Below are positions 24,488 through 28,073 of a stretch of DNA of 33,057 nucleotides, in pieces (position 1 is the stretch's first letter; each line of letters begins with the position of its first letter). The notes under the pieces were generated by a model, which made no database searches, was not told the origin of the DNA, and saw only the letters and a program-made list of their open reading frames with translations. The DNA is taken from IMG/VR virus record IMGVR_UViG_3300020061_000055, positions 1 through 33,057 of that record; one strand, written 5' to 3'. The position numbers and the translations under genes were made by a program. This DNA comes from a virus.

Positions 24488-24910
24488 ATGGAACTAGATG
24501 TAATTAAATGGGCTATAACCCAAGGAGGATGGGCAGCATTAGCTATACTTATGTTCTGGATGTATACTAGAGATTCTAAGTCTGCTCAGGATAAATTAAT
24601 AGAAATGAGTAAATTCTATAGTAATGATGTTAAAGAAAATCAAACTAAATTAGTAGATACTGCTGCAGCATATATGTCATTTGGTGAAAAGTATGCTGAG
24701 TCATTAACTAAAATTTCAGAGTCTCTTAATTATCAAGCTAGAACATTAGAGAAGATAGAAGATCATTTATCTAAGGTGGATATGTTTTCTGATGTTCCTA
24801 AAGAATTACTAAGAGAAAGATTAAGAGCTTCTGAAGTTCCTAAAAGAAGAGCAGTAGATCTTACATTGCTTCATGCCTTAGAACCTCCCCAGCAAGGTAA
24901 GGCAAGTTAA
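24488..24910 (+). CDS. Membrane-anchored coiled-coil protein, holin-like (140 aa)
   Basis: One hydrophobic segment near the N-terminus (GGWAALAILMFWMY, residues about 13-26) is followed by a basic turn and a long polar coiled coil (residues about 30-100), with a disordered tail. The layout resembles BhlA/UviB-type holin-like proteins, though those are shorter. It is followed without a gap by the receiver-domain gene (TTAATG), so the pair may be co-translated. A role in lysis timing, or as a membrane platform for the receiver protein, are the two main ideas. Confidence 0.6.
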   Translation: MELDVIKWAITQGGWAALAILMFWMYTRDSKSAQDKLIEMSKFYSNDVKENQTKLVDTAAAYMSFGEKYAESLTKISESLNYQARTLEKIEDHLSKVDMFSDVPKELLRERLRASEVPKRRAVDLTLLHALEPPQQGKAS

Positions 24911-25293
24911 TGTTAGTTTTAATAGTTGATGATACTGCAGCTAATCTAACATTAGCGTCTATTCTATTAGAAGCTGCAGGATATAAATATATGCTAGCAA
25001 TGGATGCAGAGGCTGCTAGAAGCATTCTTAAAGAATTTAATCCCGGCATCATAATTTTAGATTTACTTCTTCCAAAAACAGATGGATTTACCTTCTGTAG
25101 GGAATTAAGATCTAATAGTAGATTTGAAAAAACCGCCATAATTTCTATGACGGCATATTTGGATGATTCTATAGCAACAAGAGCAAAGGAGGCAGGATTC
25201 GATTATTATTTACCTAAACCCTTTACTTCAAAAGAATTTATAGAATTATTGGATTCTATCAGAGATGAACTCCATGATAATACGAGAAGCTGA
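24910..25293 (+). CDS. Stand-alone CheY-like response regulator receiver (127 aa)
   Basis: A complete receiver domain with every signature residue: acidic pair D7-D8 (VLIVDDTAANL), phosphoacceptor D51 (IIILDLLLPKTDGF), T81 (IISMTAYLDD) and K103 of the KP turn (DYYLPKPFTS). No output domain follows. Such proteins carry phosphate from a histidine kinase to a target. No kinase is encoded in this window, so a host kinase or small phosphodonor would be needed. It is embedded in the late operon between a membrane protein and a GNAT-like gene, with overlapping starts and stops, so it is not a random insertion. Confidence 0.92.
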   Translation: MLVLIVDDTAANLTLASILLEAAGYKYMLAMDAEAARSILKEFNPGIIILDLLLPKTDGFTFCRELRSNSRFEKTAIISMTAYLDDSIATRAKEAGFDYYLPKPFTSKEFIELLDSIRDELHDNTRS

Positions 25294-25653: not shown

Positions 25654-27021
25654 ATGAGTGATCAACTTAGGGATTTAATCGATAAACTGGCTGTTCAGTA
25701 TCTTGATTTTGGAAATTCAATCAGGCAGATTGATGAATTAATACCAAAAAAGATTATAATTCCTTTGGTTAAAATCACTCCAGCAGATGATATTAATCTA
25801 GCCTTCAAATCCCTATATAATGGTGGTGGAAGATTAATCTGTGGTCCTGGTAAGTATCCTGCTATTATTCATTCACAAAGAGAATTACAAACTTTAATTA
25901 CGGTAGAATCAGAAGATTCTAATAATAGGGCAAGTATTGCAGGATTCACTGCCAGAAATAAATCTTGTAATGTTGTATTCTTTAATACTGATTTTCATAC
26001 AGATGGTCCAGTAAGTCCCACAAATCATATTTCATTGGGTGGTGATAAGACTACTATGAAGATTAGAGAGGAAGTCCCATTTGGATTTTCTTTCATTAAT
26101 ACTAGACATAGAGGACCAGCACGTAGAGCCTTTATGGCTAATTGTGCTGATTTACTTATTGAGGATATTGATGCAGATGATTATTACGAGAAAGGAACTG
26201 ATTCACAAGCTATAGCTGGATGGAATGGATGCCGAAATCATATGATTAGGACATCCAAATTATCTGCAGCTAGTGAGAATATTATTTATGGTGGCGCGGA
26301 TGCAGCTAATCTAGAGATGTATCCTGAAGGAATTACATTCGATAAGAATGTTTTTTCAAAGAAAGAAGAATGGAGAACACTCAATTATAATATGAAGTGT
26401 CTTATGGAATTTAAGAATGCTAAATATGTTCTTATTAGTTATAACACATTAAAGGATACCTGGAGACAAGCATGGGGTAATTCTCCAGCAATTATGATTA
26501 AGGCAGCAAATCAGGAGAATACTAATCCTTATGCTGAAAGTTCTCATTTCACTATTATAAATAATGACATATATAATGTTGGTGATTATATTACCATTAT
26601 AGGTCAACGAGATGGAAACTATAATAGTGGTATATGTAATGATATTCTAATTAAGAATAATTTCATGCACAAAATGCATGCTATAGGTTCTGGTAGAGCA
26701 ACTCAGATTGGTGATGGTCCCAGAAATGTAAAAATATTACAGAATACTATACTTGATAATATCAATTCATTTATGGAAATGTATGGAATTCCTGGAGATG
26801 ATATTCATTTTACGGATAATGTAACAGGACATGGATATTATGGACTTATTAATAATAGTCCGACTTATGTTCCTGAAATTGAACGAAACATCGTAGAGCT
26901 TAATCCAACTAGAAAATATAAACTTACTCCATCTAACACTTATGTTCCTGCTCCTATAAGAGATTATCTTATAGCACATCCTGGAATTGCTGGTTCAGAT
27001 TGGTGTAATTATGGAGTATAA
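25654..27021 (+). CDS. Beta-helix tailspike, possible depolymerase (455 aa)
   Basis: The central part (about residues 90-420) shows repeated strand units rich in N, D, G and I (CADLLIEDIDADDYYEKGTD, HFTIINNDIYNVGDYITIIG, NDILIKNNFMHKMHAIGSG, RNVKILQNTILDNINSF), the pattern of a right-handed beta-helix of the pectate-lyase type. Tailspikes of this kind bind or cut surface polysaccharide. The N-terminal helix (RDLIDKLAVQYLDFGNSIRQ) would attach it to the virion. Catalytic residues cannot be assigned from sequence alone. Confidence 0.75.
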   Translation: MSDQLRDLIDKLAVQYLDFGNSIRQIDELIPKKIIIPLVKITPADDINLAFKSLYNGGGRLICGPGKYPAIIHSQRELQTLITVESEDSNNRASIAGFTARNKSCNVVFFNTDFHTDGPVSPTNHISLGGDKTTMKIREEVPFGFSFINTRHRGPARRAFMANCADLLIEDIDADDYYEKGTDSQAIAGWNGCRNHMIRTSKLSAASENIIYGGADAANLEMYPEGITFDKNVFSKKEEWRTLNYNMKCLMEFKNAKYVLISYNTLKDTWRQAWGNSPAIMIKAANQENTNPYAESSHFTIINNDIYNVGDYITIIGQRDGNYNSGICNDILIKNNFMHKMHAIGSGRATQIGDGPRNVKILQNTILDNINSFMEMYGIPGDDIHFTDNVTGHGYYGLINNSPTYVPEIERNIVELNPTRKYKLTPSNTYVPAPIRDYLIAHPGIAGSDWCNYGV

Positions 27022-27023
27022 CA

Positions 27024-28073
27024 ATGGGTAAACGAGAAACAAAAGAAACATATAAGGACTCTAAAGAAGCCGCTAAGAATGTCACTACAGCTTATGAACC
27101 AGTTACTGCTTCTGCTGGACAAAGAGCAGATACAGCAGGTTCACAATCTGGTGAATTAAGAGATGCTATAACTGGCGGTTATGGTGGTATGGCTAGTGGT
27201 CCTGCTAGGCAAATGAACATGCCTAGAGAGATTAAGGTAGGTGAATTACAAGCGGCAAATACCGAGTATCAGAAGTTTAGAGATACTGGGGGATTAAGTG
27301 CTGAAAATGAATCTAGAATGCGCGGAGGCGGTGGATTTGATGAATTCGCTAAAACCGGAGGATATTCAGATAAGAACAAAGCTGATATTAAAGCTCAGGC
27401 TATTAGTCCTATTGGATCTTATGCTACTGGGACTCAAGATGAAATCTCAAGGAGACAAGCATTAACAGGAGGATATGCTCCTGGTATGGATGCTGCTAAT
27501 AGACAATTGAGACGGGATACAAGTAGAGGAATTGCAGATACTAGTCTAAACGCTAATATAGCAATACAAGATAAAGTTAATCAAGGAAGACAATATGGAA
27601 TCAGTGGTATGGCTAATTCGGAAGCAGGACTTGCAGGATTACAGACTGGTAATAGATTACAAGCATTGGGCGGAGAATATAATACTGGTAACGCTATATC
27701 GGGATACGACGCCCAAAACGTAGGCAATACTATGAATGCTGAGCAGTTTAATATCAATACTGCTAATCAACAGCAAGCTGCAGGATTATCTGGATTATCT
27801 GGTATGTATGGTAGTGATGTTAATAGAGAGCAGGCTGAAAGAGATAGACAAGGCGGTATGATGACTGATGCCGATAGAGCTAGATTAGGCTATATGGGCA
27901 CTCAAGGACAAATAGCAGTTCAGCCTGGTATTGGTGGTAATATAATGAGTGGTGTTGGTGCTGCTGCTGGTATTGCTGGTGGTATTATGAGTGGTGGTGC
28001 TACTAGTATGCTTGGTGGAATGATGCCAAGAGGTGGAACTACTAGTAGTGGACAATTTACGGGTTACGCGTAG
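27024..28073 (+). CDS. Glycine-rich internal (ejection-type) protein (349 aa)
   Basis: A polar, glycine- and alanine-rich protein (TASAGQRADTAGSQSGELRD, RRDTSRGIADTSLNANIAIQ) with a hydrophobic glycine-rich C-terminal stretch (IMSGVGAAAGIAGGIMSGGA) that could insert into a membrane. Repeated NA/QA/AG motifs and the position before two large virion proteins match small ejection proteins of short-tailed phages, which leave the head with the DNA. No enzyme motif. Identity is inferred from context and composition. Confidence 0.65.
   Translation: MGKRETKETYKDSKEAAKNVTTAYEPVTASAGQRADTAGSQSGELRDAITGGYGGMASGPARQMNMPREIKVGELQAANTEYQKFRDTGGLSAENESRMRGGGGFDEFAKTGGYSDKNKADIKAQAISPIGSYATGTQDEISRRQALTGGYAPGMDAANRQLRRDTSRGIADTSLNANIAIQDKVNQGRQYGISGMANSEAGLAGLQTGNRLQALGGEYNTGNAISGYDAQNVGNTMNAEQFNINTANQQQAAGLSGLSGMYGSDVNREQAERDRQGGMMTDADRARLGYMGTQGQIAVQPGIGGNIMSGVGAAAGIAGGIMSGGATSMLGGMMPRGGTTSSGQFTGYA

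Follow-up and report, generated by a model that had tools for sequence, protein, structure and literature searches.

The window analyzed here is the whole of the 33,057-base IMG/VR virus record IMGVR_UViG_3300020061_000055, which may be a fragment or incomplete. It encodes a stand-alone CheY-type receiver directly behind a small membrane protein that matches a holin family, and pairs of the same kind were found in about nine phage groups, nearly all of them in or beside lysis genes (GH108, M15, DUF5675, holin, or Rz-like spanin). We propose that host lysis is regulated by the receiver, an optional component that would be expressed late and act through the membrane protein encoded upstream, a reading to which we give a probability of roughly 0.45. 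While receivers and this holin family are known kinds of protein, their recurrent pairing in lysis cassettes appears to be undescribed within the open-access literature.

Table 1 Genes of the window locus and membrane protein–receiver pairs of other phages (pairs in gene order)
Feature	Position	Strand	Evidence or remark
One-TM membrane protein, 140 aa	24488..24910	+	PF10960 Holin_BhlA match; proposed receiver partner
Stand-alone CheY-type receiver, 127 aa	24910..25293	+	PF00072, five phosphorylation residues, AlphaFold2, PDB folds
GNAT-like protein, 126 aa	25265..25645	+	Homologues in lineage; marks lysis-gene slot
R9Y1-3: 121-aa TM protein, receiver, GH108 lysozyme			Further viral contigs of same type
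Foturvirus R8W, H4/4: class II holin, 98-aa one-TM protein, receiver, another membrane protein, terminase			H4/4 membrane protein after receiver annotated with two membrane domains
PB15, XX1924: XhlA-like protein, receiver, M15 peptidase (PB15) or DUF5675 protein (XX1924), 3-TM holin			PB15 partner vs PHROG 937 (XhlA-like), 1.8e-16
V22, A5: 122-125-aa protein with weak N-terminal TM, receiver, spanin-like protein, 2-TM protein			A5 spanin-like protein vs PHROG 4297, 2.9e-8; endolysin-annotated gene after 2-TM protein in A5
L121: 100-aa TM protein, receiver			M15 candidate nearby on other strand
L127: 83-aa TM protein, receiver			Other strand: 2-TM protein and lysis candidate (by inspection, no Pfam match)
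L133: 97-aa TM protein, receiver, DUF5675			
L135: 131-aa TM protein, receiver, GH108			
PT11-V19: 93-aa TM protein, degenerate receiver			DUF5675 protein and 3-TM protein on other strand

An earlier reading of the window, made from its sequence alone, had described an intact, stand-alone receiver retaining all phosphorylation residues, and this description held. The PF00072 profile spans residues 3-114 of the protein (E = 8.2e-24; 84.4 bits, with the cut-off at 30.2), and D7, D8, D51, T81, and K103 occupy the alignment positions at which other receivers carry their phosphorylation residues, so that the acidic pocket (D7/D8), the phospho-acceptor Asp (D51), the Ser/Thr switch (T81), and the Lys (K103) are all kept. 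The structure prediction proposed with that reading gave a complete receiver fold with the usual order of strands and helices (AlphaFold2, mean pLDDT 94.5). Its closest solved folds are the ordinary receivers RpaA, RR468, CheY, PhoP, and DivK, and its best viral fold match is V22 gp30. No second or output domain was found in the 127 residues. Identity to the closest bacterial sequences does not exceed 39-40%, and a search of viral contigs returned no close homologue. The fold and active site are the same as those of the bacterial single-domain receivers CheY, DivK, Spo0F, and RR468; in contrast to these, however, the window receiver is phage encoded, linked to a holin-like gene, and without a cognate kinase in the record.

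The receiver gene lies in a co-directional block (positions 7017-32733) that also contains terminase, capsid, and tail genes, which makes the earlier label of a late operon reasonable, with late expression being a reading of gene order. The overlap of reading frames reported previously is real: the start codon of the receiver gene falls on the last base of the 140-aa gene (1-base overlap, gap of -1), and its 3' end overlaps the following ORF by up to 29 bases. Likewise, the statement that no kinase lies nearby was borne out, as a profile search detected no PF02518 histidine-kinase ATPase domain anywhere in the 33-kb record, which may be a fragment.

The best reading of the 140-aa protein, judged from its sequence, is a holin-like or holin-accessory protein. 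It matches PF10960 Holin_BhlA over its N-terminal 46 residues only (2.3e-6, 27.9 bits against a cut-off of 22.6), and a repeat profile search was also over the cut-off; weak PHROG matches to bacteriocin/holin families were found as well. The protein has a single N-terminal TM segment followed by a long, charged helical remainder, and the charges flanking the TM segment predict by the positive-inside rule that this remainder is cytosolic, in the same compartment as the receiver. Its AlphaFold model is helical and of low confidence, too uncertain to say more than that. No close homologues were found in viral contigs and none in named phages. The BhlA/UviB holins are likewise small, with one TM segment and a charged remainder, whereas the window protein is twice as long as the profile (140 versus 70 residues) and is followed by a receiver gene; pore formation by it is putative. 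A similar resemblance to a second class of lysis protein, the XhlA type, is seen in the PB15 partner, which matches the XhlA/hemolysin family. We also considered an Rz-type i-spanin, whose coiled coil would be periplasmic and to which the L121 and L127 partners show weak matches, and this identity is disfavored because the charged part of the membrane protein is predicted by the positive-inside rule to be cytosolic in every pair examined.

Comparison with related phages places the receiver in a site that holds endolysin candidates in some of them. Terminase matches identified 42 related loci, and the receiver was absent, by sequence and by the PF00072 profile, from all 26 related phage records searched, several of which are short fragments while the larger ones cover the slot; the positive control of the profile search responded in 14 of 14 genomes. 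Since the closest relatives lack it, the receiver is dispensable in the window's lineage, and its conservation within that lineage is ruled out by the same absence. In the closest relative, G002 (terminase 74%), the slot reads tail fiber, an 85-aa one-TM protein, a GNAT-like protein (63% identical to that of the window), and a homologue of 27024-28073. The presence there of a TM protein without a receiver fits the receiver being an optional regulator. Among more distant relatives, the slot holds an M15-type endolysin candidate in G010 (PF08291, 4.9e-18), and another in G003 (PF13539, barely over the cut-off). The G009 slot encodes a protein of 100 aa whose single match is to the Hedgehog signaling domain profile PF01085; we regard this domain as distantly related to M15-like peptidases and count the G009 protein as a third candidate. 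With M15-type endolysin candidates in the same position in three relatives, the site is a lysis-gene slot in these phages and therefore probably one in the window. At the window locus itself, the partner is over the BhlA cut-off and the endolysin candidates of the slot are seen in the relatives only; no endolysin was recognized in the window, and PF08291 is absent from the record, which may be incomplete.

The occupants of this slot in G010, G003, and G009 make the receiver and the 455-aa gene at 25654-27021, which G002 also lacks, look like two insertions into one lysis-gene slot. This 455-aa gene lies between the GNAT-like gene and 27024-28073; its product has no Pfam or PHROG match and appears beta-helix-like by eye, perhaps a tail spike. 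The GNAT-like gene is a conserved occupant of the slot, with similar genes in G006, G009, and G010 in addition to the G002 homologue, and in G010 and G009 a gene resembling it in size and sequence follows the M15-type endolysin candidate. The sequence-only reading had placed the receiver between a membrane-anchored protein and a GNAT-like protein; the order is correct, but the GNAT-like label was not confirmed by Pfam, in which no family recognizes the window protein or its relatives. This gene is probably outside the recurrent pair.

To find the pair elsewhere, we searched other phages with receivers as the only queries, leaving the membrane protein out, and examined the gene neighborhoods of the true phage matches, defining a pair as a small bitopic membrane-protein gene directly before a stand-alone receiver gene. 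The refutation proposed with the sequence-only reading, related phages lacking the gene and showing no conserved pairing, was borne out in part: close relatives do lack the receiver, but the pairing recurs in unrelated phages (Table 1). The membrane partners are highly diverse, with 12-24% identity to that of the window. Two contigs carry the reverse order of receiver, C-terminal-TM protein, and 2-TM protein (L150:4127-5197 and L156:4872-5990). The extent of the survey is the reach of its pattern scans: a scan with the PB15/XX1924 receivers gave no further matches, and an alignment pooling every phage receiver proved too diverse for scanning. Stand-alone receivers away from lysis genes were also encountered (L136/L138, L140, L144, L146, L147, L148, L149, and L154), some of which may be bacterial sequence.

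To estimate how often such an arrangement arises by chance, a lenient definition of the partner, with a background of 16%, was replaced by a stricter one. Among 240 background genes comparable in size, a strict upstream partner precedes 6 (2.5%); such a partner is present in 9 of 18 receiver groups (P about 1.5e-10 against this background). Counting the marine receiver clade once leaves 4 of 13 groups with an upstream partner (P about 2e-4). Because the strict definition was written post hoc and the groups are not fully independent, these P values are guides rather than formal tests; one A5 partner just misses the definition.

The recurrence bears on a different role, in which the receiver would be a decoy, in line with the phosphate sink suggested in the sequence-only reading, that drains phosphate from a host histidine kinase or blocks it (e.g. 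of envelope stress or chemotaxis) late in infection, with the membrane protein serving as a tether near membrane kinases or being unrelated. An intact phospho-acceptor site without an output domain, in a record without a kinase, is what such a decoy would look like. However, a decoy that diffuses freely would have no need of a constant partner gene, whereas nine phage groups have a small membrane protein encoded upstream, and many of these receiver genes are set among lysis genes; we consider the decoy unlikely. The receiver might instead be an adaptor that works independently of phosphorylation, its fold serving only as a module that binds the membrane protein (for assembly, stability, or as an antiholin) and its active site being kept by descent. 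The receiver-like protein of PT11-V19 (L100:3498-3950), which has lost both the phospho-acceptor Asp and the Lys while its partner gene is kept, speaks for this and provides a test case, set by nature, for function without phosphorylation. The remaining lysis-linked receivers in the sample nevertheless all keep the acidic pair, Asp, Ser/Thr, and Lys, although across groups they are only 20-30% identical to one another, and we regard a pure adaptor as quite improbable.

Both genes of the pair are under purifying selection in two phage families, the R9Y-like phages and Foturvirus. Within these families, dN/dS is 0.08-0.16 for the receivers and 0.07-0.28 for the partners where measurable. In a phylogenetic tree, 11 receivers of marine/Alteromonas phages, which include podo-, sipho-, myo-, and N4-like phages, form one group (90/86), implying either transfer of the gene between phage families or its retention over a very long time. 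The receivers of the window, L135, L150, and PT11-V19 fall on long branches outside this clade, and a single clade of all phage receivers is neither shown nor rejected (p-AU = 0.125). The window receiver could thus have been acquired separately and have come to lie in a similar setting. These data also bear on whether the gene is accidental cargo, a host receiver acquired by chance and without a role in the phage. While a lineage-specific single insertion, absent from all relatives searched, would suit that explanation, the recurrence of a like partner in nine groups and the strength of purifying selection on the genes of R9Y-like phages and Foturvirus argue against it, and we find it very unlikely.

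Several of these genes have been described before in other terms. R8W g48 was described as a PhoB for low phosphate (PMC8228385), whereas V22 gp30 and A5 gp11 were placed in a host-recognition module and called CheY-like auxiliary genes of class II (PMC7289586, PMC10579305); all three were published as auxiliary metabolic genes and not as lysis genes. A term search of the R9Y paper (PMC9430817) found no mention of the receiver. No paper joining a CheY-like protein, a holin, and lysis was found among the open-access literature searched. As in the window, the receivers of V22 (gp30), A5 (gp11), R9Y1-3, R8W, H4/4, PB15, and XX1924 are stand-alone and immediately preceded by the gene of a small one-TM protein; they lie in or beside lysis genes. 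They are only 19-28% identical to the window receiver, which falls outside their clade in the tree.

Despite its PhoB label, R8W g48 (L098:3501-3962) is a receiver alone, with no DNA-binding domain. The published annotation (PMC8228385) would make these proteins PhoB-like transcription regulators for low phosphate; they are, however, single receiver domains of 127-153 aa, and a PhoB/OmpR-type regulator is ruled out by this domain content, which includes no C-terminal DNA-binding domain, leaving the annotation scarcely credible as a function. The assignment to a shared host-recognition module (PMC10579305) suggests in turn a virion or adsorption role, with the protein carried in the particle, and the gene does come after tail-fiber genes in the window, V22, and A5. 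The immediate neighbors are nonetheless membrane and lysis proteins. Moreover, many phages have their lysis genes located after the tail genes. Beyond this proximity to tail genes, nothing was found for the virion-carried signal protein raised in the sequence-only reading, and such a role is highly improbable.

With an intact receiver and a membrane protein predicted to face the cytosol recurring together among lysis genes, the simplest reading is control of the membrane protein by the receiver. The idea of a role in lysis by way of the membrane neighbor, put forward before, gains support from the holin-family match, the endolysin candidates in the relatives' slot, and the recurrent pair. We infer physical binding, phosphorylation in the infected cell, and an effect on lysis timing. 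Under this model of lysis control, the receiver would obtain its phosphate from a histidine kinase of the host or from acetyl phosphate or a similar small donor. Its binding to the membrane protein would shift with phosphorylation, and the altered binding would advance or delay lysis according to the state of the host, with either sign conceivable. Gating of lysis by phosphorylation is possible, given the intact active sites, with one homologue lacking the site. Weighing against the model are the absence of the receiver from the closest relatives, the loss of Asp and Lys in PT11-V19, the viral receivers situated away from lysis genes, the unrecognized endolysin of the window, the great diversity of the partners, and the position of the window receiver apart from the marine phage receivers. 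We put forward more tentatively, as a doubtful but possible extension, that a phosphorylation-responsive receiver docks on a holin-like protein and times lysis by host signaling or energy state, and that phages gained the pair on several occasions, exchanging it across unrelated lineages as a two-gene module.

Phage lysis timing responds to membrane energy and, in T-even phages, also to superinfection. If the receivers act on lysis proteins, lysis timing would also track host phospho-signaling, tying virus release to host physiology, and a phosphorylation switch may contribute, in some phages, to setting the moment at which the host bursts. If true, this would correct the reading of these genes as phosphate-response or generic signaling auxiliary genes. 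The question is directly testable because the carriers R9Y1-3, R8W, H4/4, V22, A5, and PB15 infect cultured marine Alteromonas.

The searches also returned database matches labeled as phage (gut MT83xxxx, Listeria, Acinetobacter, and Salmonella records) that were rejected: the nine unannotated ones that were fetched are multi-domain bacterial-type regulators and are probably contamination or host flanks. Many phage-labeled MT83xxxx and OR84xxxx records appear to hold bacterial multi-domain response regulators. Since the gut records that were read are of this kind, receiver counts in phage databases are inflated. Separately, a 153-kb viral contig may carry a phage-borne two-component system (L148:4261-6330), in which the gene for a histidine-kinase-like protein of 244 aa stands before two genes for receiver-type proteins.
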